From Saccoglossus kowalevskii (Eukaryota; Hemichordata; Enteropneusta; Harrimaniidae), in NCBI RefSeq assembly GCF_000003605.2, contig NW_003124907.1, positions 10,764-36,233 on the forward strand: DNA of 25,470 nt, in the 5' to 3' direction. Shown one piece after another: positions 1,890 to 24,959 of this stretch. Below the pieces are notes generated by a model. The model ran no database searches, was not told where the DNA came from, and worked only from the letters and a program-made list of their open reading frames with translations. The position numbers were made by a program, and so were the translations under genes. How positions within the stretch are numbered: position 1 is the first letter of the stretch; each line of letters begins with the position of its first letter.

Positions 1890-1916
1890 TTTATTTCACT
1901 GTATCCGTATTTTATT
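1890..1916 (-). terminator. Poly(A) signals of gene 3
   Basis: Two AATAAA hexamers on the minus strand (1911-1916 and 1890-1895) lie about 130-155 bases after the proposed stop codon of gene 3, as expected for a short 3' untranslated region. The assignment rests on position and hexamer only. Confidence 0.5.
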
Positions 1917-2044: not shown

Positions 2045-2057
2045 TTATATACTGCAA
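2045..2057 (-). CDS. Gene 3 exon 10: terminal coding exon with the last Cys
   Basis: The acceptor CCATAG is followed by TTGCAGTATATAA. Joined to the phase-2 donor of exon 9, it encodes Ser-Cys-Ser-Ile and a TAA stop. The cysteine completes an even number in the VWD domain. Gene 2 has the same AG|TTGC start in its last exon, which supports the choice. A nearby alternative acceptor (TTGCAG) would omit the cysteine. Confidence 0.6.
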
Positions 2058-5000
2058 CTATGGAGTGAACACACAGAAAATTAAACACACTCAAGTATTT
2101 AACACTTTTGGCATCATTAGATGAGAACAAATCACAAAATAAAAACAACCTGGCTGCCTGGGATTCACACTACCCATAGCGTTGTCATTTCAAATCAAAT
2201 GTACACGTACTACTGGAGCTATTCAATAATGAAATTTCCTCACCAACTGAAGACCAAACGCCGATTTAACTAACACCAATGCCGATTTGAAACAAACATA
2301 ATCATATATACGTCAGTGTTTTTATATTTTGCAATATATTTTTAATATGTTTTAAATATGGCATAGCTCAACTATTTAAACTTTGTGTAGCCAGTATCAA
2401 ACAATTATAAAAAAAAGCAAAATATTAATTTTCAGGCTCAGATCACACAAATCTACATCTATACTTTACAAATTAATCGCAGTAATGATGTGCTCACCTT
2501 CCTGGAACAATCCACATGTCCCCAAAGTCACCAGACTCAGTAACTAATTTTAGTGTCCCATCTGGCATCGGTACCTGCATATCATTAGACGGATCCCCGT
2601 CAGCATTTCCCAACATGCCACACACTTTTCCGAACATAGATTTGTTTAGAACAGGAGCAACGCGTCCTTTGCCATTCCACGCCAAAGTAAATGTTGAATC
2701 TAGTTTTGCTCTCACATATCCTGCATTATCTCGTGTCACTGTCAGATTTCCGAGTATCAGTGGAGTCAGAAGACTATGGATTTTGCCATTTATCTATAAA
2801 GTTAGTGAATATAATAGACAATATAAATTAATGTGCCATATATGATGTGTATTATGCTAGAAACATTTGATTGTAATGTATTGCAAACGTGAAAGCTGCT
2901 GTGTGCACCCCTTCGCTACAATTCATTACAATACACTTTCCAGGTTACAATAGTAAACAATTCAAGTGGCTGACAAAATAGAAATCCATGATGTACGAGA
3001 ATATTCACCACTGCCAATTAAATTTAAAAATGGTTGGCAGAATCTCTGGTTCTGACTCTAAATTGTGAAAATTCATATTGGTAAAATACGAAACAATAAA
3101 ACCGAAACTGTTCGGACAGCCTACTGAATTGGTAAGTTACATCGTGTAGGATTGTAGCAGCTCTGCCTGTTTAACTCTGTTTTTCCACTGATTAGTCGTG
3201 CAGTGTTTTCTGGCTAGAGCCGTAGGGCTCCGATAAAATGCTGTTGTGTGAACGTAGCAATTAATCATCCACTAACAATGCTATCTGATTCTATCTGAGT
3301 GTACACATCAATGGAGTGAAATCTACTTACGTAAAGCCTGTCCTCAATCAAGGTAACACGGTCTCCATTAAGAACAATCGAAACTTCGGAAACCACCATT
3401 TTCATAACTTCCCTGAGATAATGGTATCGGATCAAAACAGTGAAAGATGGACGAGGTACACAATCTTCAAATAATACGTACTCACAATCGCTGTTGCCAT
3501 TATACATATAATGAAATCCGTCGAATGTGCGAATCTGTGGGTCCCCTTGTACACTAGCACTCCCTGGTGGCCGTGGGGATGGTGTTGGCTCTGTAATAGA
3601 ACGTTGTTTTCATTGCATGACTTAAGTTCTACTTTTGAACAGAACTGGGTAATTCCATAGTATTGCAAGATCATTTTAGGTGGAATGAAAGCAACATAGA
3701 AATATTCATCCAAAATTAGCAAAAAAGGGGATTGGAAAATGATTTAACTTCCAGTTTATAAAATTATCTGTTTTTTTAACTGTATTGCACAACGTATTTT
3801 CATAAGACCATATAGTATACAAACCAACTCACGGGTATCCCCTGTAACGAAAAAAAAATAGTTATAATAACAATAATTTTAAACAATGTTGTGTTAAATT
3901 ATTATACTGTAATAATTCGAGACAACGTATATTTAAATGTGAGTATCTTGTACATTCTTACGTTTACAACATTTGCAGAAAAAGGGGAACGGACAGGTGT
4001 TTTCCATTTGTCCTATGTGCTCGCCGGCTTTACATTTGAAAAGTCTACACTTCCCTCCGAGCTCTTCGCATTTGGTGTCTGTAATTGCAAAGCAACAGTC
4101 CTACTTGGTCAAATTTGCCATTTCTAGATTGCACGTGCGCCTTTTATGTTATCAAATCGTTATGTGTACGTTGGCCGGTTCGCGTGGTACATGTACATTA
4201 ATGGCCACACATTCGGATTGTTTTTCAGTACGTGTTCTTCATATCAATAATAATTCATGTTCGCAAAATCCTGCATTCCATTTAGTGATTGCATTACAAC
4301 TCAGGTTTGTTGAAATGATATAAACATAACTTACGACAAAACCATTGACATATATCGAAACCCAAACCGTATAGAGCTTTCAGAGCTGAAAAAAATTAAA
4401 TGTCCAGTTTTAAAGGAGTTGTCAAAAAAAAGGAAGACAAATCACACAATAATGCCAAGGCGAATGTGGTCATAAACACTTGCAAGTTTTAGTTTGATAT
4501 TTTAGAGTTATTATAATGGTAATGTTAAACAATATCTAGTCGTAACAATTGTTTCGTGTTAATCAGAATCCCAATCAACGACACTGTAGAAATCCAGTAT
4601 ATTAAGCGATAATAGCTTACTATCTTTATTAGCGCACGACTTGCAACCCAATTTGTCGTTAGTGGTACCACAGGGTAAGGAATCTTTTTGATAACTACAT
4701 ATTTCTGCCTCGTTGTCTTGACACACGGCTCGGCATGTCGCATTAACATTCTCGTCTGTCTGAGTCTGGACTTCCTTAATATATGATTGTTCTACATTGT
4801 GAAATAAAATACGTTTAAATACATACAGACTGCAGACTAAATTAAACTATTACGTCATTACAGGAAGTGTGTGTAACTTACTTACCAGGACACGCTGGCT
4901 CAGCACCTGGGAGTAAAATAATAAAGACGAATTATGGACTAACACCCCTAATTAATAATATGCTCTTGTCAGTTGCTCTGTTCTTGTTGACTGTTTGGCC

Positions 5001-5416
5001 GTTTAGTCTGGTTGTTTTGTGGAGTACTTGTCGGTGTTTTTGAAATTGTAAATTCCTATTTATGACTATCTCGTATTTTTACTTTAATTACATGTCATGC
5101 AAATCACCATTTTTAATTATCTTAAACTATTACAAATAACATACGATATACCTAATTAGTATTCATATCATGTGCAGTGTAAACAGAAGGTGTAACTCAC
5201 GTGTTTGTTTGGGGAAAACCCATTTAGAAAGTTCATCCTGTACAAACACAAATATGGATAAAATCAAAATGATATATTCAAAATATTCATAACTTGTTGG
5301 TCCTTTAGTATCTCTATGACGACTTTAATGAATGGAAATAATGAAATTACCTCACTGCATGAAGTCAACGTCAATGTAGTCGCGACTAACAAGCATCGTA
5401 AAACAAGAAATGACAT
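2045..5416 (-). CDS. Gene 3: secreted defensin-like / VWD chimeric protein, 10 coding exons
   Basis: The model joins 5351-5416, 5201-5237, 4886-4906, 4621-4791, 4335-4385, 3962-4078, 3833-3841, 3331-3590, 2498-2793 and 2045-2057, giving 1041 nt or about 346 residues. All junctions are GT-AG and keep frame. Order: signal peptide (1-22); short linker; nine-cysteine region (C40 to C115) that I do not recognise; beta-defensin-like domain (119-153); Pro/Ser linker (159-171); VWD domain (about 172-344). VWD landmarks are GDPQIRTFDG (173-182) and CGMLGNADGDPSND (302-315). The domain has four cysteines (193, 201, 302, 344), and its CGxL lacks the CxxC seen in genes 1 and 2. The whole protein is probably extracellular. 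An antimicrobial, inhibitor or mucus-associated role is inference. The start is chosen because it gives a clean signal peptide. Alternatives are skipping of the 9-nt exon or another 3' end. Confidence 0.85.
2058..2497 (-). other. Gene 3 intron 9
   Basis: This 440-base AT-rich intron has donor GTGAGC and acceptor CCATAG. If the intron is retained, the frame hits TGA inside the donor. Nothing else is recognised in it. Confidence 0.6.
2498..2793 (-). CDS. Gene 3 exon 9: second half of the VWD domain
   Basis: This exon has 296 nt, enters in phase 0 after acceptor CTTTATAG and leaves in phase 2 at AAG|GTGAGC. It encodes residues 245-342 with the VWD signature CGMLGN followed by ADGDPSND, then FGDMWIVPG. 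The acidic Asn/Asp cluster matches the calcium-binding loop of VWD domains. Confidence 0.92.
2794..3330 (-). other. Gene 3 intron 8, inside the VWD domain
   Basis: This 537-base phase-0 intron (GTAAGT donor, TTTATAG acceptor) splits the VWD domain at the same place as in genes 1 and 2. No other feature is seen. Confidence 0.8.
3331..3590 (-). CDS. Gene 3 exon 8: Pro/Ser linker and first half of VWD
   Basis: This exon has 260 nt, phase 1 in and phase 0 out. The first 13 residues are rich in Pro, Ser and Arg (PTPSPRPPGSASV) and look like a flexible spacer. The VWD start follows: GDPQIRTFDGFHYMYNG, then cysteines 193 and 201. The acceptor is CTATTACAG and the donor is TAC|GTAAGT. Confidence 0.92.
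3833..3841 (-). CDS. Gene 3 exon 7: 9-nt microexon
   Basis: GGGATACCC lies between a strong acceptor (polypyrimidine run, then CGTTACAG) and a strong donor (GTGAGT). It is phase 1 on both sides, so it can be included or skipped without a frameshift. Inclusion gives Lys-Arg-Asp-Thr-Gln-Pro at the domain junction. Skipping gives Lys-Gln-Pro. Its reality needs a transcript. Confidence 0.6.
3962..4078 (-). CDS. Gene 3 exon 6: beta-defensin-like domain
   Basis: This 117-nt symmetrical exon (phase 1 to 1) encodes 38 whole codons. The cysteine spacing is C-x6-C-x4-C-x12-C-x5-C-x-CC (residues 119, 126, 131, 144, 150, 152, 153). It has the Gly-Gly-Lys before the second cysteine (CEELGGKC), an acidic residue then Ile-Gly (GEHIG) after the third, and a final Cys-Cys followed by basic residues. 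Vertebrate beta-defensins follow C-x6-C-x3-5-C-x8-10-C-x6-7-CC with the same Gly pair and Ile-Gly. The loop before the fourth cysteine is about two residues longer here and there is one extra cysteine. Carboxypeptidase inhibitors with the same fold are an alternative. Confidence 0.75.
4335..4385 (-). CDS. Gene 3 exon 5: short hydrophobic/Cys exon
   Basis: This 51-nt exon is phase 1 on both sides (TTTTTTCAG acceptor, GTAAGT donor). It encodes LKALYGLGFDICQWFC, which is partly hydrophobic and carries two cysteines (111 and 115) just before the defensin-like exon. A hydrophobic segment in front of a defensin fold recalls big defensins, but this one is far shorter than a big-defensin N-terminal domain. 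Confidence 0.8.
4621..4791 (-). CDS. Gene 3 exon 4: unrecognised cysteine-rich module
   Basis: This 171-nt exon is phase 1 on both sides. It encodes 56 whole codons with six cysteines (61, 65, 73, 82, 91, 94): CRAVC, then C, C, and GCKSC. It contains one N-glycosylation sequon (Asn-Ala-Thr, 58-60). I do not recognise the family. With C40 and exon 5 it forms a nine-cysteine block, so at least one cysteine probably pairs into the following defensin-like domain, which has seven. Confidence 0.85.
4886..4906 (-). CDS. Gene 3 exon 3: 21-nt microexon
   Basis: The exon reads phase 1 to phase 1 between CTCCCAG and GTAAGT. It encodes Ala-Glu-Pro-Ala-Cys-Pro and contributes the first mature cysteine (C40). 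Both splice sites are strong. Confidence 0.75.
5201..5237 (-). CDS. Gene 3 exon 2: linker after the signal peptide
   Basis: This 37-nt exon enters in phase 0 after TTGTACAG and leaves in phase 1 at GTGAGT. It encodes DELSKWVFPKQT plus one base that makes Arg with the next exon. There is no cysteine. It could be the end of a propeptide. Confidence 0.8.
5351..5416 (-). CDS. Gene 3 exon 1: signal peptide
   Basis: The 22 codons MSFLVLRCLLVATTLTLTSCSE form a textbook signal peptide: a short N-terminus with one Arg, a hydrophobic core, and small or polar residues near the likely cleavage point. The donor is GAG|GTAATT in phase 0. The bases just before ATG (TTTTCAGG) could be an acceptor, so an upstream untranslated exon is possible. 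Confidence 0.8.
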
Positions 5417-9329: not shown

Positions 9330-10695
9330 ATGAAAACACAGGTTATGCACATTATAATGAGGTAAATAAGTGTTGTAAACGGAGTGTCATGATTAAATCT
9401 GGTATGATGTGCATGGAACGACTCATGGTGCAAAAGCCGAAAATACTATATCTTGTTGTTTTCAATAAGTATATGTGCAGCAACAATAAACTGTACAAAA
9501 CCAGACAAGTATTATAGACCCATATCATGCAAAGTTACAGGGTGTGTACAAATATACCCCCTTACTTTTAGGCTATTGTATGTTCATCCAACTGTCCATT
9601 CAGAATGAATAAGAAATAAAGTAGGTGCAAAGAGACTATATGGAATGTAATTGTACTTCATAGAGTTATCAATGATGATATCAATTCCATCAGACTGATA
9701 GAACCGATAAATGTAATGAATTTATCGCATGGCAATAGTAATGTGTCATCTGACATATAACCGGAGTGAATTGACCATGTGCAAAAACAGCATTTTTGGT
9801 TTGCATAACACATGCTATAAGAAGTAAACTTCTTGTATCACCAATGAAAAGGCTGTAAATGAGTCAACATCAAACCAGAAACATAGAATGTAAATGCATG
9901 GACCTGTTTGTACAGAATCCCAGTTCATCCCTCATTATTTTTGTGGATCATGTTAAAAAGATCTAAACCATTATGAGGCCAATGAAAAACTCATTTCCAT
10001 AAAAAAAATAATAACAAATGACAACACATGTCATTGTTTAATGTTGAGGTGATTGGCATGAACTGTTAATCGGTGGCACCATTTCAAAAATGGCAGCTGG
10101 CAACAGAAAAACCTTCACTGATGTACATGTGTATGTAGTGAGCACAAGGAATTGGCCCCTATCAGTTTCTGCCTAATAAATGACAGTTATGTACATTCCT
10201 GCTGTGACCATTTACCTACAATAGCAACATCACAAGCATGATAAAAGCCCCCTGATGTACACATTGCAGCTCTTGCTGTTTCTTGCATGTGACAAAAGTC
10301 CGCCTAAATCACAAGAAACTTGTAGTGCGCCAAACAATGATCATGAAAAAGTAAGAATGAATAAAGCCAGCCATGCCAATGTGGTGAATCAAATGCAATT
10401 TCTTGCATGACTTTCTGCTCAATATTATACAGTGTGTGGTAGCCTATGCCGAATAATCAATGGTGTGGTCACAAATGATCATGAAGATTAATCATGATCA
10501 CATACTTCATATACATTATAACATTACATTAATGGGCAAAGACTATAAATCATATCCATGCCCCTAGACATGGCTACATCCGAGGTCATCATTTTGCCAA
10601 TGCCATTCTTGCATGTCATTATTGCTTGGTTGCATAGACTAGACTATTAATGTACAAGTATTTACACATATCGGCCTTAATTGGTTTTAGATGCT
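9330..10695. other. Non-coding DNA left of the gap
   Basis: No gene is seen. A palindromic pair, TGATCATGA and TCATGATCA, occurs at 10476-10500, and TTCTTGCATG-type words recur. This may be an old unrecognised repeat. Confidence 0.4.
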
Positions 10696-10822
10696 NNNNN
10701 NNNNNNNNNNNNNNNNNNNNNNNNNNNNNNNNNNNNNNNNNNNNNNNNNNNNNNNNNNNNNNNNNNNNNNNNNNNNNNNNNNNNNNNNNNNNNNNNNNNN
10801 NNNNNNNNNNNNNNNNNNNNNN
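10696..10822. other. Assembly gap (127 N)
   Basis: A run of 127 N. Its real length and content are unknown. Any open frame crossing it is an artefact. Confidence 1.
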
Positions 10823-11268
10823 AATTTATTGAAATGCATCGCGACAACTGTGACCGGTCGGTTAGGTAATTGTTACTAGTCGCACCGTGCACACACATAT
10901 GAGTTCACAGGCCATAGGCCTAGTAAATCGCTGTTATCATTTATATACGATGCAATATTTATTTTTGGTCATTAGTTTCTCTGATTCATGACATCATGTG
11001 CCAATTAATCCTGAAAATTGGCTTTGCTAAGCGATGAGTCGTTTAGTACAAAACACTGAATGATCATAGCATGGTGTGCAGAGTTTTAGAGGTAAAGCAA
11101 TTGTTAAGAATATATTAAAATTTGTGGAAAAGGGCAAAGGCTCTTACCTTAGTACAATGTCTGTACGGCGTCCTGGGCTGGCTGGCAAAATAATCACGTC
11201 ATCGAAAGATGCGTGTACGTGTACTGTAGACAATTTCCATGACGCTGCATTGCATGCGTAGAGTCTAT

Positions 11269-12169
11269 GGGGTGAGATCACCGCCAAAATAGAATTATTT
11301 CAATATCTTTCAATTATCTCACCATTATTTCATCTTTATTTCAATATCTTTCAATTATTTCACCATTATTTCACCATTATTTTAATATCTTTCAATTATT
11401 TCATCAGTATTTCAATATCTTTCAATTATTTCACCATTATTTTATCATTATTTCAATATCTTTCAATTATTTTACCATTATTTCAATATCTTTCAATTAT
11501 TTCACCATTATTTCATCATTATTTCAATATCTTTCAATTATTTCACCATTATTCCAATACCTTTCAATTATTTCACCATTATTTCATCATTATGTCAATA
11601 TCCTTTAATTATTTCACAATTATTTCAATATCTTTCAATTAATTTCACCATTATTTCACCTTTATTTCAACATTTTTCAAATATCTCACCATTATTTCAA
11701 TATATTTCAATTATCTCAACATTATTTCAATATCTTTCAATTATTTGAGATAAATCATCGCTGAGTGACGTTTCCTTTTGGTAGGGTCTGTTGTGACAAT
11801 TATAGTTTGCCATAACATCGGAATCTGAAATAATTGAAAGATATTGAAATAATTGAAAGATATTGAAATAATGGTAAATAATTGAAAAATATTGAAATAA
11901 TGGTAAAACAATGGTGAAATAATTGAAAGATGTTGAAATAATGGTAAAATAAGTGAAAGATATTGAAATAATGATGAAATAATGGTGAAATAATTGAAAG
12001 ATATTGAAATAATGGTAAAATAATTGAAAGATAATGAAATAATGATAAAATAAAGGTGAAAAAATTGAAAGATATTGAAATAATGGTGAAATAATTGAAA
12101 AATATTGAAATAATCGTGAGATAATTGAAAGATATTGAAATAATTCTATTTTGGCGGTGATCTCACCCC
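11269..12169. mobile_element. Fold-back element with minisatellite arms
   Basis: The two ends are inverted copies starting GGGGTGAGATCACCGCC and continuing through AAAATAGAATTATTTC. TAT flanks both sides (11266-11268 and 12170-12172), which may be a target duplication. The left arm (to about 11747) and right arm (from about 11827) are built from the same tandem units in opposite orientation: an 11-base word (ATTATTTCACC and variants) and a 30-base unit made of two such words around an 8-base core (ATCTTTCA). A unique core of about 80 bases separates them. No transposase is present. A long open frame read through the right arm is a by-product of the repeat and not a gene. Confidence 0.85.
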
Positions 12170-13459
12170 TATTGAACTTTGGAAAACAGGACATGTGATA
12201 ATACAACAACATTAAATAGAAGACATTGCATGTCAATCTTCACACAATAAATACTATACTCGCACATTCAGTGCATTTTCTGTGTTATGGAATAATAAAA
12301 ATACTTATTTGATTCGGCTTACATGAACTTCTTTTCTGTTTCATAAATAAATACGTACCCCAATGCATGGACTGAGGTTTGTCACACTCGTTTACGGATT
12401 ATTTCGTCCCACTTCTCAAACTCGCGTGAGAAATCCCATCGTAGTCTCTTGGGTTATGGGACTCTATTATTATTGGTGTGTGGAGTCTACAGCACAAAGG
12501 CACATTTTGCAATGATTTCAAAATCATTTCACGGGAATAAGTTGGTATTTTTAATCATCGCATTTAATAGTTGAAAAAAATGACATGCAATGTGTTTTAT
12601 GTAATTTTGTGCTGTATAATAGGCCCGTACGGCTTTGCATAGGATTGACTGCATTTCCCACTATTCAGATCAATGGGCCATAGTCACTACGGACATGTAC
12701 ACCTTGACCTTGTTCAGACTATAACTGAATAAGCAATACCTACATGATTAGAAGTCACCCGGATAAAGCGGATATTCTTTCTTATCTTCTCTTAATTATG
12801 TCATTAAATTTTTATTCAAAAAAATAAATAAAATTATTCTCGAAACACGTACAGGAAGTTGATCGAAGGTATATATTTTATTTTTAACTAGTGCTTGTTG
12901 ACCCCTTTAAGCACTGCCCCACAATCTCCAATCATGCCGTGTTTCAAGAGTAAATAAATTTATTATTTGCTATAGACTATCTTTGTTTACATTGTCATCC
13001 ATTTTCTGATCAATAAACGACTTCCTCCATACACAAAAAACACTGTGTGCTGCATCATTGGACTGTATATATTATCCATAGTTTCCCCGCAAAACAAATC
13101 CAATTTACTCCTCGGGCAACTACAGACAACCCAAAACCTCTCACTAGACAGCCTTATATGTATTTTACGGCGTGAAATTCTTTATTTTATATACCTGCGT
13201 CTAATTTATTTTGTTATAATTATAAAATACAACCAGAAAGAAAAACGAAAATGAAATAATAATAATAAATAATAAATTTGATTGCAATACGAGGAAGTAA
13301 GGCAACGAGAGACTGTAATCTGGCTATATGACAGCGTAACAGTCCTACCTTGGATCGTTGAATGAACAGTTATTTTCGTATCGTATTCATATGCTTGTAT
13401 CACGCCATCTATGACATTGAATGTCACGTTCTTTGTAAGTTTATAGATTATTTAACTTC
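12170..13459. other. Non-coding stretch with no supported gene
   Basis: AT-rich sequence. The minus-strand frame near 13335-13430 is discussed among the findings as a possible isolated exon. Nothing else is supported. Confidence 0.4.
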
Positions 13460-17704: not shown

Positions 17705-20700
17705 CTATGGATAAAAAGACAAAAAACAAATCCTGTGAACATATATAAATATTTATAACAATAGCTGACTCAATTTCCATTTTGACCTTACATAGAATAA
17801 AGATTACATAGTCATTTTAGTAATGATTTGATATCATTTTTTTGCGTTCAACAAATTTTCCATTTTAGTAGCATTTTGAGATTTTAATTTGACTAAACTC
17901 ACCGGTCATCCATGCCGCGACGCCGAAATTTTCTTGCCATATCGTCAATAGTCGAATAGCCTTGGAGTTCGTCGTCTTCTGTTCCGATTCCGTTACGATT
18001 GCCACACATTCCACATATGGGAGTTTTATCGGGAAGTAATAATATTATTTCAACCATATGTATCTTGCAATCAAAAATCACTCTATACTGATCGAATACC
18101 TCAATGGTAAAGATGTTACCATCTTTCTGCACGCTTCCCTTCCCGGGCCAAACGTGGGGGAACTTTGTCCACTGTTCTCTATTTAGCTGTATGAAGAATA
18201 CATTCAATGAGACAAACAACATTAAGTACAGTACAAAGTTCATTCGAATAAGTCGAAAAAAAAACTTTAGATACAGAGAGAGGTGACGCCATTTAGCATA
18301 CAATAATAGCTCATAATAGACACAATGAAATGCAATTATTGGTGATATGTTAAATGTACACACTAACCCAGTATGAGCAGTCATCGGGTATAATTTCAGT
18401 AAACCGACGAGTACCACGTCGATTTAATTTCAAGGCCGTTACCCGTGTGTGACCGTGCTGGTGTGGGCGTGCATTTGCAGTGGTCACTGTCACTAGGTGT
18501 GAAACTTTTTTCTTGCTACACCAACCAAGAAGAATGTACGTACAATTTCCCATGTAGCTGTAGTGGTACCCATCGAATGTCTCGTAGTGAGGGTCCCCTT
18601 TCACAATGCAATCTTGAAATCAAACACAGTTAGGATTTTATAATAGTACCACCATTTATTTACACTCCTAGCTATGATGGTATAGTAACACTGTCAAGTC
18701 AGGGAAAGCAATCGCATCCAACTGACAAAGCAATAATCTGATTCAATACAACTTGCTTGCAATTATGTTCATGTGCTGCCCCGTTGATCTTTCTAACAAG
18801 ATCGTTAACTCTCCCACCTCCCATTCTTTTAAATCCTCATATGCAGTTCTACAGGTTTATTCCTAGAACCCTCTTTTTTAGGTCATTTTATGTATTCGAG
18901 TCGAAATAAGTGACTGTATGCGATGTTTAGACCAGTTATTCAATCATAACATGTTTGGTTCAATATTGATTTACTCATACCATTTGCAAAGTTCAACACA
19001 TTTTCTTGTATTGTTGTATTGCTTATGAATAACTACTCTAAAGCTTTCATATATTAATTTCATCACATGGCAGATCTTGCCTGAATGTGGTTGTTGTTGT
19101 CTAGGAAAATGAGCTTAAACTGCATAAAACACTTACGTGGTCCTTCTTGACGCATCATTACTGACTTGATTGCCAATATTCACATGTACACACATATATG
19201 CAGCACCAGAATAGAAAGCAAAACATATGTATGAATGAAAAATATGAATGTTTAAATTATTCTGCGAGTAGCACTCTCAATCTAACATTGATGCACCAGA
19301 GATCACTTAGTGATTGAGGAACAGTATATTATATACTGCAAAAGAACTTTTGGGGATTCAATAGTACATCAATTTAAAATCTGGCTCCCTTGGAAATGCA
19401 TAATGTGCATGCTTTCATTTTGGAAGAGCGCCATATAATGGATAGCATGTATTTACTTAACTTTTTTATATGGTCCTGTGTGAATATGTTTATTGCAAGG
19501 CCTCTGGCTCATATATACAATATAAAATAAATTATATAAAACAAGAATCAACTAAATTACAAGATAATGTGTCAGTTAAATGTTGTCAGATTTTGAATGG
19601 ATAACTTGACCTGAAAAACTTTGTATACAAATAATCAACTGTGGCTAAATCTGATGTTTACAATAATTCAATGACGTTTTGAGAGTTCAGCTTCTGTCAA
19701 ATATACCACATTTTACAATAATGATTCAGATATATTCATATACCGCTGTAGTTGTATAATAAATAAATAAATAAATAGCAAGTCTAAACAAATTGGAATT
19801 AGCATGCAGCTCCGCCCACATCTTGAGGACAGTCAAAATAACATAACCCAATTAAAGCTAGACATAAAAATGTGCATACAAACACGTAAACAAGTAGTAA
19901 GAAGAGCGGCATACTTCCTATCTACAATGCATATCACTATAATTGTTTCAATTAATTAAATCAACTATGTGTATGAAGAAATACTTAACAATATTATTAG
20001 CTGTATATATAACTAACCATACAGAATTTCCTCTAACTACAACACGATATGCATAGACTTCTAATTGATAATGCACGACATTTTGTGCGGACAGTATTCG
20101 TTTATGCCACCTTTGTGCTAATATCGACGCCCAGCCAGTTTATAACATAACAAATACGCAGCGTAGAGAATATGAATCTATAATGATATTATTGAGTTTC
20201 GACATGAATCCACCATCTTCAAGGATTTACAGATAGTCACCAAACTTACAATGCTTACTTGAAACTAGTGTATGTTACAACGCTACATTCATGTACTCAA
20301 GGTAAAAAGACATACCCATATATGTATTATAATACCATGCGTCTATCTATCATATATGGACAGTATTTGAGGGTCAATTTTCAATTTTCGTTCACATTTG
20401 TATGAATTGCTAGAACAGAAAATGCATTATGGCCCTAGTCATTTTCAGTTCGAAAAAAAGTTTGTTTAACTCACGGGCCCGACTGCGTCTCGTTCACTAT
20501 TGTGTTTGCCGTGTAATATTACAAACCACTGAATATAAATTGATTAATTTATGTGAATTAGCATGATACATATGTAATAGGTTTGTACCCACTACCTGCC
20601 AATGTAATATGGTGCGTGGACCACATAACTTATAAGGAACCTGTCGATAGTGAAACTTTCCCAATTACGCTATTTGACGAGCTTCATCAATCCACTATAT

Positions 20701-21457
20701 TATAACATTGGCCTGTAATAGATTACATAATGATAATGCTGTGGTTGGCATTTCTCATGCGGTAATCCTAAACGATGTAATCAGTTCTAATGCCAAATAA
20801 ATGAACTTTTTCAGCACGGTCTACTTGTTCGGAATATAATATGGAGTCTCCATACGAACATAAAAAAATTGCAAAATGACGAACAATCCGCCAAAAATAC
20901 TAAGTTTGATTCACAAATTAATAAACATCAACTTCAACGGTTGGTTCCAAAGTAATATATGTTCGTGTGTGTCTTTAAGTACATAAATCTGTTGTTATTA
21001 AAATCGAAATACTGTAGTCGTCTAATTATAACTACTATTGATTCAATTATTATATAAAGTTACTCACTTTTTATATACATTTAAAGTACACATCAGACAC
21101 TATTTTAGATTGCCCACCCCCAAAAAACTGTACAACGTGTCAAATATGGGTTTGATACAATAGGTTGAACCTTCTTTGTCTTGACCATATATGCATGTAT
21201 GTAGTTCACTGTCTACTGTGCGGTTCAGTCGTGAATATAAATAGGGTTACTACAAGCAACGATTACCTTGTATAATTAAAATAAATGACCTGACGTTGTT
21301 AATATATGTATACATGGTCGTGATAATTACATAAAGGTGTACAAGTGATTGTTGTATATAGGAAATGTGGAAAAGAAATAATACATACATGAACCGACGC
21401 TCCGTGTACAGCAGTGATACATAGCACCACCACTGCCACTATAGTCGCAAGGGGCAT
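17698..21457 (-). CDS. Gene 2: secreted single-VWD-domain protein, 5 coding exons
   Basis: The model joins 21389-21457, 19137-19164, 18368-18612, 17903-18186 and 17698-17704, giving 633 nt or about 210 residues. It has a signal peptide (about 1-20), a short linker, then a VWD domain (34-210) with [20 protein letters not shown] near its start and CGMCGN (171-176) plus [10 protein letters not shown] near its end. Eight cysteines are seen (34, 56, 64, 111, 154, 171, 174, 210), an even number. VWD domains occur in extracellular proteins such as mucins, von Willebrand factor, zonadhesin and Cypridina-type luciferase. A free single domain does not tell function. It is a tandem duplicate of gene 1. 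If the last intron is retained, an in-frame TGA in the donor ends the protein without its last cysteine. Confidence 0.85.
17903..18186 (-). CDS. Gene 2 exon 4: second half of VWD
   Basis: This exon has 284 nt, phase 0 in (TTCATACAG) and phase 2 out (CCG|GTGAGT). It encodes residues 115-208, including [20 protein letters not shown] and [17 protein letters not shown]. It is very similar to 22340-22633 at the nucleotide level. The tail ([12 protein letters not shown]) is more basic than the gene 1 tail. Confidence 0.92.
18368..18612 (-). CDS. Gene 2 exon 3: first half of VWD
   Basis: This exon has 245 nt, phase 1 in (TTTCAAG) and phase 0 out (TGG|GTTAGT). It encodes residues 34-114, starting [14 protein letters not shown], with the NCTY sequon and cysteines 34, 56, 64 and 111. 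It is four codons shorter than the gene 1 exon in the loop after Cys64. Confidence 0.92.
18613..19136 (-). other. Gene 2 intron 2
   Basis: A 524-base intron with GTAAGT donor. No other feature is seen. Confidence 0.7.
19137..19164 (-). CDS. Gene 2 exon 2: 28-nt linker exon
   Basis: It encodes SVMMRQEGP plus one base of His, phase 0 to 1, with donor CAC|GTAAGT. The acceptor is AAG rather than the CAG four bases later, because CAG would put a stop (TAA) directly after the signal-peptide exon. The matching exon in gene 1 has the same length and site. Confidence 0.7.
19165..21388 (-). other. Gene 2 intron 1
   Basis: A 2.2 kb AT-rich intron. It contains a short (AAAT)n microsatellite at about 19759-19777. 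The part next to exon 2 (about 19170-19220, with TATATGCAGCA) resembles the same place in gene 1. No gene is seen inside it. Confidence 0.65.
21389..21457 (-). CDS. Gene 2 exon 1: signal peptide
   Basis: The 23 codons begin [20 protein letters not shown], then SVH: a hydrophobic core with Ala-x-Gly-Ala before the likely cleavage point. The donor is CAT|GTATGT, phase 0. Length and end (GASVH) match gene 1 exon 1 exactly. Confidence 0.85.
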
Positions 21458-22339: not shown

Positions 22340-22633
22340 TTATTTACAATCAGCATGACGATCATTGTGTTCGAATGCTTCTGCCATCTCGTTAATCGTC
22401 GAATAGCCCTGCAGTTCGTCGTCTTCTGTTCCGATTCCATTACGGTTGCCACACATTCCACATATATGTTTTGTATCCGGATGTAATAATATTATTTCAA
22501 CCATATGTATCTTGCAATCGAAAATCACTCTATACTGATCGAATGTCTCAAACGTAAAAATGTTACCATCTTTCTGCACGCTTCCCATCCCGGGCCAAAC
22601 GTGAGGAAACTTTGTCCAATCATCTCCATTAAA
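22340..22633 (-). CDS. Gene 1 exon 4: second half of VWD and stop
   Basis: The exon enters in phase 0 after TTTTCACAG. It encodes residues 119-215 with [26 protein letters not shown] and the end HADCK-stop. About 25 extra bases before the homologous donor carry the new cysteine and TAA. Confidence 0.92.
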   Translation of the reverse strand, partial: FNGDDWTKFPHVWPGMGSVQKDGNIFTFETFDQYRVIFDCKIHMVEIILLHPDTKHICGMCGNRNGIGTEDDELQGYSTINEMAEAFEHNDRHADCK

Positions 22634-24959
22634 CTGTGAAAATAAAACAGACTAGTCAGTGAAATATAGAAGATATTCTAATAAAATTTAGAATAAGTTA
22701 TATTTTGTTCGTACTTTCTAGGATGTACTTCTATGTTCTCGTGGGACAGAAAATACACATTCTAAATTCTTCTTTATGTAGTTTTCTAATTCTAGATCTG
22801 ATTCAATTTTTGGCATAATACCTAAACATTTTGTGTCACTTGTATAGTGTTAATATAGGACAACAATTTTACAGAATGTGAAATTTAACTTAGTGTCTTG
22901 CATGATATTCATCCACTATAAATTGTTCCCAAAAGTTTTTCATACAGAAAAGTTCCATATTTAAAGATATATGTTTAGGTATTATGTCTGTGTTAAGGAT
23001 GTAGTAGAGGTTATTGCTTTTGCAATTACATAACACATTTCTGAAGTAACATATTCGTTGACTCCCATTAAATTTTATATTTTTAGAAAGCTTATTTTTT
23101 CAAATAATATGAAATAAACACAAAAATGGAACCCTGTAATCACGTGGTCACTGTGCAAATAGAGAGATGTTATTTTCGAAGAAACCGAAATAAGGCCACA
23201 GAAATAAAGTTCACGGTACTTAGAGATACTATACAAGGTTTGAATTAAATTTCGCACTTAGTATAATATTGCGTGACCTAGATTGTGACCTCATAACACT
23301 TTTTAAAAGCATCTTCAACGTTGTTTTGAAATTTCTGTTGAATATGCATTAAGGTATATATGACGTCATTATATCACACTCAAGATTGACATTGTCACTC
23401 ACCCTAAATGAGCAGTCATCAGGAATGAACTCAGTAAATTGCTCAGGAGAACGAAGTCGATTTAATCTCAAGCTCACAACCCTTGTGTGTCCATTATTAT
23501 TGGGGTGTTCATTTTTAGTACTGACTGTGACGAGTTTCTGCTGAACTTTACCATTTCTTTTGTTGCACCAAGCAAGAAGCATATATGTACAGTTGCCCAT
23601 GAATGTGTACTTGTAACCATCAAATGTCTCGTAGTGAGGGTCACCTTTCACGATGCAGTCTTGATGAAAAAAAGATAGATGTGCATATTAAGGTAAACAA
23701 GAGAAGTGCATTCTAATGACGAAAGATAAACGCATTTTATCGAGCCCTGATAACAACGGTAGAAGTACTCAATATAGCTGAAAAATACACCAGTGAAAGA
23801 ACCAGTGGCCGTTTGATGACGTTTTCTGTCGATCTACTCGATTAAAGGTACTTTATTTCACTCGGAATCTTTAATGAGCTCTCATCTTTTATCTTTTAAA
23901 TCGAAGTATCGTTTATTTCGTTTTTTTCTCGATTTATCTGCTTGCGAGATGCAAAACAAATTAAAAATAAAATGAAACAAACTAAAAAAAATAGAATGAT
24001 TTTTAAAACGTATGGCATATCACTTACGTGGTCCATCCTCTCGCTTCACAACTGACTTGAATATAAATATTTATACATATATGCAGCATAAGAACAGAGA
24101 GTAGGTACAAAACAAAAAAAATAAATTGTTGATTGACAGATTCACCACGAGAGTCACATTTAAATTGTTCACAATGATAAGTATTAAACAATCCACTAGA
24201 TACCTAACTAGAGTTAACCACGTAACGCCAAAATTACCCTTCATTAATTGTATCGTCTTTTAAGAATTGGTAGACAGTAGACTAAGTTGTCAATATAGTT
24301 TGACACAGTAGCTGCAATACAGGCTATTGACTTCAACGACAATCACTCAGACTTGGGAATTACAACGCCACAGTTGCACATTACAGTTGTAGATGTATTC
24401 ATTCGATTCACTGTATGCGACCTACACTGTCACCTATCAATTTAAATCGACTACACAAAATAGAAACACTGACCAACTCATCTATGTTGGCTACGCCAGT
24501 ACGTTATATCCCATACAAAAGCGTTAACATCATACAGAATCACTATATATCTCAATGATTTAAAACTATATTATTTTGAATATTCTACAAGCAGTGCATA
24601 TAATACCACTGTAAACAATGGGTCAGATTATTTGCTGACATGGTAACTACATGCAATACGTGGCATAATATATTATGTACCATAACTTTAACCCTTTCTA
24701 GCTTGTCCATGACTGTGTGCCCGAGGCTCGCCGTTCCCAACGATGTACGGTAGTAAATATATAACAAGATAATCAAGTTATGTGACAAGGAGAACACGAA
24801 TGAGGGGACTGCTTTTACATATGCGTCATGTTATTGAATTAAAAGGGACAAGTATCATTTTGTATAAAGAGTCGTAAAAATAATACATACATGAACCGAT
24901 GCTCCTTTAACAGTGGTGCTACACAGCATCATCACCACTACAATGATCGTTAGATACAT
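22340..24959 (-). CDS. Gene 1: secreted single-VWD-domain protein, 4 coding exons
   Basis: The model joins 24891-24959, 24028-24055, 23403-23659 and 22340-22633, giving 648 nt or about 215 residues. It has a signal peptide, a short linker with a Lys-Arg pair (SVVKRED), and one VWD domain (34-214). Motifs are [20 protein letters not shown] and CGMCGN (176-181), then [10 protein letters not shown]. Eight cysteines are seen (34, 56, 64, 115, 158, 176, 179, 214). The CGMC resembles the CGLC redox motif in the D1 and D2 domains of von Willebrand factor. It is probably secreted, and its function is not known from sequence. The stop (TAA) lies inside exon 4, unlike genes 2 and 3, where a further small exon supplies the last cysteine. 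Confidence 0.87.
22634..23402 (-). other. Gene 1 intron 3
   Basis: A 769-base phase-0 intron (GTGAGT donor), against 181 bases in gene 2, with no visible similarity to it. No other feature is seen. Confidence 0.75.
23403..23659 (-). CDS. Gene 1 exon 3: first half of VWD
   Basis: This exon has 257 nt, phase 1 in (CATCAAG) and phase 0 out (AGG|GTGAGT). It encodes residues 34-118: [14 protein letters not shown], the NCTY sequon, then a basic loop, and FIPDDC near the end. Confidence 0.92.
23660..24027 (-). other. Gene 1 intron 2
   Basis: A 368-base AT-rich intron with GTAAGT donor. Nothing else is recognised. Confidence 0.7.
24028..24055 (-). CDS. Gene 1 exon 2: 28-nt linker exon
   Basis: It encodes SVVKREDGP plus one base of His, phase 0 to 1, with donor CAC|GTAAGT. 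As in gene 2, only the AAG acceptor keeps the frame open. The Lys-Arg pair could be a processing site; gene 2 lacks it. Confidence 0.7.
24056..24890 (-). other. Gene 1 intron 1
   Basis: An 835-base intron (GTATGT donor), much shorter than the 2.2 kb intron at this place in gene 2. The end near exon 2 resembles gene 2. No gene is seen inside it. Confidence 0.65.
24891..24959 (-). CDS. Gene 1 exon 1: signal peptide
   Basis: The 23 codons begin MYLTIIVVVMMLCSTTVKGA, then SVH, with a strong hydrophobic core. The donor CAT|GTATGT is in phase 0 and identical to gene 2. Confidence 0.85.

Follow-up and report, generated by a model that had tools for sequence, protein, structure and literature searches.

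Beta-defensins are known as small, free-standing peptides that form a three-stranded sheet, with the cysteines paired Cys1–5, Cys2–4 and Cys3–6. In the vertebrate beta-defensins (Pfam families PF00711 and PF13841; PDB entries 1bnb and 1fd3) the cysteine array starts as C-x6-C-x4-C and ends in CC-K/R. A GG is located ahead of Cys2 in 1bnb, and two solved members have the spacings 6, 4, 9 and 6. In big defensins (PDB entries 2rng, 6qbl and 8bgk) Cys2 is preceded by R-G-W and followed by Arg (C-R), Cys3 is followed by E-x-hydrophobic, and the cysteine region forms a separate exon behind a phase-1 intron; their N-terminal domain is hydrophobic. PMC7203481 places a phase-1 intron just 5′ of the cysteine region in beta- and big-defensin genes. 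It considers two hypotheses on the origin of beta-defensins from big defensins, one of which is exon shuffling of the cysteine module.

VWD domains are typical of FCGBP, von Willebrand factor (VWF) and the gel-forming mucins, where they are parts of D assemblies. The VWD of FCGBP carries the motifs GDPH and CGLC, and the CGxC motif acts in disulfide exchange. According to PMC10880436, the replacement of GDPH by GDPN in FCGBP inhibits cleavage.

Here we describe a gene of the hemichordate Saccoglossus kowalevskii in which a beta-defensin-like exon and a VWD are joined. It is gene 3 of a stretch of 25,470 nt, which as a whole is called the window hereafter. A ten-exon model read from the genomic sequence (5416–2045, minus strand) is in frame and yields 346 aa. 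The order along the protein is a hydrophobic start, SKWVFPKQT, the Cys-rich exon 4, exon 5, exon 6, the 9-nt exon, a proline-rich linker and the VWD. The signal-like character of the start was judged by eye. The features of the gene are:

5351..5416, minus strand: exon 1, start codon ATG with a signal-like hydrophobic stretch MSFLVLRCLLVATTLTLTSCSE, found in five of the six copies
5201..5237, minus strand: exon 2, DELSKWVFPKQT, with SKW[VI]FPKQTR common to all six copies
4886..4906, minus strand: exon 3, R-A-E-P-A-C-P
4621..4791, minus strand: exon 4, Cys-rich module C-x3-C-x7-C-x8-C-x8-C-x2-C, phase 1-1
4335..4385, minus strand: exon 5, short, phase 1-1, C-terminal end G-F-D-I-C-Q-W-F-C
3962..4078, minus strand: exon 6, beta-defensin-like Cys array, phase 1-1
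3833..3841, minus strand: exon 7, 9-nt microexon (RDT), phase 1-1, in copies 1, 2, 3 and 5
3331..3590, minus strand: exon 8, proline-rich linker followed by the first half of the VWD, GDPQ in place of GDPH
2498..2793, minus strand: exon 9, second half of the VWD, CGML in place of CGLC
2045..2057, minus strand: exon 10, final residues SCSI and stop, seen in the gene of the window
1890..1916, minus strand: two signals of the polyadenylation type (AATAAA) beyond the stop, at 1916 and 1895

Elsewhere in the window, a low-complexity array extends over 11262–12239, whose frames encode FQYLSII-type peptides that are alike on both strands (plus at 11262–11748, minus at 11727–12239), as if two arrays were placed head to head. 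A run of N is located at about 10690–10825 (127 N in the window). A scan of the window against Rfam gave no match.

The 38 residues of exon 6 were searched against the assembly of the same genome (572 Mb, 4830 contigs); the six candidates were all scored, and the counts are lower bounds. Besides the window copy, at least five more were found on four other contigs (E 1.7e-8 to 1.1e-4), namely on C3649, C844, C1003 and C373 (two). Five of the six copies are intact: the one in the window (on C1742, copy 1), those on C3649 and C844, and both on C373. These are in frame throughout exons 1–9 with splice sites at matching places, and the exon order is common to all six copies as far as exons were detected. 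The 9-nt exon 7 recurs together with its splice sites in four copies (1, 2, 3 and 5); it was searched for and not found in copies 4 and 6. The two copies on C373 (loci L011–L013) share a strand and are about 17 kb from each other; the 9-nt exon was detectable in neither. Copy 5 (C1003, locus L016, 6440–9178) is decayed. Its Cys4 is replaced by Tyr, the joined model has a stop right after exon 7, exon 8 measures only 95 nt, the VWD aligned as fragments only, and a search for exon 1 found none. With the exons of gene 1 and the protein of copy 4 as tblastn queries, 15 further genome stretches (L019–L033) gave no match at E 0.01.

The initial annotation of this DNA, made from the letters alone, had placed exon 6 between a signal peptide and a VWD with the frame kept, and both the 346-aa model and the five intact copies agree with this placement. 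It had also proposed to look for the same fusion in related genomes; the search run here, in the same genome, showed the architecture in every intact copy. In this genome the fusion is therefore a gene architecture that has been duplicated and conserved.

Between the six copies the segment SKW[VI]FPKQTR in exons 1–3 (4886–5416) hardly changes, in contrast to the variable Cys-rich exons downstream. Its constancy beside these exons suggests that the segment has its own function. In Pfam, the heads of five copies (exons 2–5) matched nothing convincing, with zf-primase at E 0.015 on one of the five, and their profile matched no PDB chain at E 10.

Exon 6 itself consists of 117 nt (4078–3962, minus strand), is open with codons beginning at 4076, and is flanked by the acceptor ttacag and the donor gtaaga, with phase 1 at both ends. 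Its residues are TKCEELGGKCRLFKCKAGEHIGQMENTCPFPFFCKCCK. GG precedes Cys2, E-H-I-G follows Cys3 and CC-K stands at the end, just as the initial annotation had described; the array, which it had equated with the beta-defensin order, contains seven cysteines and not six, at spacings of 6, 4, 12, 5, 1 and 0 in the window copy. The seventh Cys, two places upstream of the CC pair, is seen in all six copies. C, GG, C-R, C, E, P and C-x-CC-K do not vary among the six. Where Cys4 is present (five copies), the spacings are 6, 3–4 and 10–12, then 7 to the CC pair, the second gap being 3 residues in copy 2. The net charge amounts to only +1 to +6, a point against the reading preferred below, and is low in copy 2. 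By chance such arrays are rare: in first-order Markov sequence a loose form of the Cys pattern turned up 0.015 times per window of 25 kb. Exon 6 fits the strict form, which none of the 200 windows simulated in this way contained.

With the vertebrate beta-defensins, exon 6 has in common the C-x6-C-x4-C start and the terminal CC-K/R, and with 1bnb the GG ahead of Cys2. It differs in its seventh Cys and in its Cys3–Cys4 loop of 10–12 residues instead of 9; the 6, 4, 9, 6 of the two solved members compares with 6, 3–4, 10–12, 7 in the copies. Moreover, in beta-defensins the mature part is the defensin domain, whereas exon 6 is embedded in a VWD protein of ~340 residues. The likeness to big defensins consists in the cysteine order, the C-R after Cys2 and the E-x-hydrophobic after Cys3, but exon 6 lacks the R-G-W before Cys2 and is followed downstream by a VWD. 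As in both defensin groups, a phase-1 intron lies immediately upstream of the first cysteine, and as in big defensins the cysteine region is a separate exon. Since exons 4–7 are all phase 1, the intron phase says little about kinship.

For the profile comparison with beta-defensins, exon 6 of each copy was scanned singly against 24736 Pfam models. Four of the six copies gave matches, all of them to beta-defensin models: PF00711 matched copy 3 (E 0.008), copy 4 (E 0.39) and copy 5 (E 3.4), and PF13841 matched copy 2 (E 0.69). Exon 6 of copy 6 and that of copy 1, the window's own, matched none of the 24736 families. Every match falls under its gathering cut-off, the best score being 16.6 bits against a cut-off of 21, and the four are not independent as the copies are related. 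The filters of HMMER discard most matches above E 0.1, and weak matches are therefore incompletely listed. When exon 6 of copies 1, 2, 3, 4 and 6 was shuffled with the cysteines fixed, 0 of 60 shuffles hit a beta-defensin model, and four hit some other family, a different one each time (best E 0.035). In the Pfam test this points to a likeness beyond the cysteines. Against it, Cys-rich stretches also arrive at E-values of this order by accident, as the hits of these four shuffles, zf-primase on one of the exon 2–5 heads, and UPF0489 at E 0.18 on the joined exons 5–6 of copy 1 illustrate.

An alignment of profiles by hhalign gave a weak result. The five intact copies scored 14.8 against four solved beta-defensins, which was reached by 40 of 400 column shuffles with fixed cysteines and by 15 of 400 shuffles of all ungapped columns (copy 5 was left out here, as in the 60 shuffles above). 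Neither exon 6 nor its profile matched a PDB chain at E 10. Searched against the same genome, PF00711 gave eight matches at E 10, none above the cut-off and none among the six copies; a search that misses these copies lacks the sensitivity to establish absence. The beta-defensin likeness named in the initial annotation is supported in part: beta-defensin models alone responded to exon 6, but below the cut-offs and without a match for the window copy. On motif and on weak but consistent profile evidence we consider exon 6 to be beta-defensin-like; common descent with beta-defensins is not established.

A link to big defensins, the other family named for comparison, found no support. Against three big defensins hhalign gave 10.9, a score that 113 of 400 shuffles attained with the cysteines fixed and 79 of 400 with all columns shuffled. 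The window exon 6 alone gave E 0.45, while exon 4, run as a control, scored better (E 0.05), and a close kinship was rejected on these grounds. One big-defensin query against the same genome returned 0 matches, which shows little as the search had no positive control. With regard to the hydrophobic N-terminal domain, the profile of exons 2–5 was compared with PDB, where it matched no chain at E 10.

The cysteines outside exon 6 raise a different possibility, namely that exons 3–6 constitute one lineage-specific domain of 16 cysteines with another fold, in which the beta-defensin likeness would be convergent spacing. Copies 1, 2, 4 and 6 have 16 cysteines from the signal-like start up to the VWD (copy 3 has 17), the last Cys of exon 5 is only three residues ahead of Cys1 of exon 6, and the extra Cys before the CC pair is never missing. 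Because of this seventh Cys and the two cysteines in exon 5, exon 6 may not fold alone. The frequency at which cysteine-fixed shuffles equalled the hhalign score is likewise in line with convergence. Against it stand the separate phase 1-1 exon and the Pfam result, in which only beta-defensin models were matched, by four of the six copies, and none of these by the shuffles. We regard this alternative, which overlaps with the functional readings below, as a serious though minority possibility.

Downstream of the head, the assignment is firm. Pfam PF00094 matches residues 170–319 (E 7.5e-24, 85.3 bits against a cut-off of 22.9), and the nearest solved chains are those of FCGBP, which is the nearest in PDB, and VWF. 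Gene 3 therefore has its VWD family in common with FCGBP, VWF and the gel-forming mucins by sequence. In contrast to their D assemblies, it has a single VWD: in the 346-aa model Pfam found the VWD only, without C8, TIL or E domains, and the model stops 27 residues beyond it. Unlike the VWD of FCGBP, with GDPH and CGLC, the VWDs of all five intact copies have GDPQ or ADPQ and CGML or CGLM at these places. Because GDPH is lost, and GDPN, in which the substitution differs from the Gln found here, is inhibitory in FCGBP, self-cleavage of the VWD appears unlikely in this family.

The window contains two further VWD genes in tandem on the minus strand, at about 22343–24959 and 17902–21457. They have the signal-like starts MYLTIIVVV and MPLATIVAV and, unlike gene 3, retain GDPH and CGMC. 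The two share 66% identity in one exon stretch and 83% in another, and one of these stretches weakly resembles gene 3.

Rates of change were estimated from NG86 counts. The five intact copies were compared in 10 pairs, which were pooled, and the decayed copy 5 was left out. The VWD had a dN of 0.062 and a dN/dS of 0.19. The corresponding values were 0.307 and 0.41 for exon 6, 0.360 and 0.54 for exon 4, and 0.387 and 0.71 for exon 5. None of the regions compared had a dN/dS above 1, so that the head gives no proof of positive selection. The dS was 0.55–0.74 in the head versus 0.33 in the VWD, and the lower value may point to possible exchange between copies within the VWD part. The identity between copies in exons 4–6 (58–91%) is about that of introns 4 and 5 (58–81%). 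It is 90–94% in exon 9, 77–87% in exon 8 and 81–87% in exons 1–3, with 75–88% in intron 1 and 50–73% in intron 8. A fixed cysteine frame with free loops on a conserved scaffold would fit a recognition or defence head, and relaxed constraint would give a similar pattern of head variation.

The exon order, the gene family, the motif losses and the uneven rates of change are observations; for fold, secretion, place and activity we infer the following. Gene 3 and its copies, a small family that arose by duplication, encode secreted-looking proteins whose variable Cys-rich head would serve host defence or ligand binding, carried by a conserved VWD as an uncleaved scaffold. The head would consist of two modules, that of exons 4–5 and the beta-defensin-like one, the latter with three putative core disulfides and one extra cysteine. 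It would most likely act as a host-defence effector or as a ligand-binding module that varies between the copies on a fixed cysteine frame. A single VWD without GDPH and CGxC could provide a stable, non-polymerising scaffold and would hold the head within mucus or the extracellular matrix. Judged from the sequences, this is our preferred reading, to which we give somewhat less than an even chance. An antimicrobial or inhibitor role of exon 6 would be one form of such an activity and is presumptive.

A more specific version is that the proteins are an undescribed effector family of animals. Their diversifying head, held permanently on an uncleavable VWD, would have the true fold of a beta-defensin plus an extra cysteine. 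Such a protein would be a matrix- or mucus-tethered defensin that arose via shuffling of a phase 1-1 exon. We put this forward tentatively, at about the weight given above to a 16-cysteine domain and below that of the general reading.

The type of domain also lends itself to a structural or adhesive extracellular protein of mucus, egg coat, matrix, shell or glue, whose Cys-rich head cross-links instead of killing or inhibiting. VWDs are typical of mucin, FCGBP and VWF proteins, the low net charge of copy 2 would be compatible with such a role, and the odd number of cysteines in exon 6 would be so as well. Nevertheless, GDPH and CGxC are gone in the five intact copies, and a head that evolves faster than the VWD is a better fit to recognition, even if relaxed constraint could equally account for it. 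On balance we regard a structural or adhesive role as a further minority possibility, a little less likely than a 16-cysteine domain of another fold.

Release of a defence peptide from its VWD carrier by proteolysis is far less probable. At the junction of exons 6 and 7, copies 1 and 5 read CC-K-R, which could be taken for a dibasic site, but the four other copies have K-L, K-P, K-P and K-P at this place. The site is not conserved, and dibasic release of an exon 6 peptide was rejected. Finally, the model was read from genomic sequence alone and might have joined unrelated neighbouring exons, but the same exon order and splice places are kept in five intact, in-frame copies on four contigs, so that the fusion is not a gene-model error and an artefact was rejected as very unlikely.

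We return to the preferred reading, a recognition or defence head on a conserved VWD. The initial annotation knew of no described family with this architecture, and in the literature searched, covering few subscription journals, no description of a fusion of a beta- or big-defensin-like module with a VWD was found either; the combination looks undescribed. If the reading is true, a beta-defensin-like phase 1-1 exon in a duplicated VWD gene would be a case of the exon shuffling that has been put forward for the cysteine module of defensins. It would also suggest that the module is used here in a tethered rather than a diffusible form. The members of the family are variants provided by nature, in which the loops differ on an unchanging cysteine frame, and the binding of the module may be tested on them.
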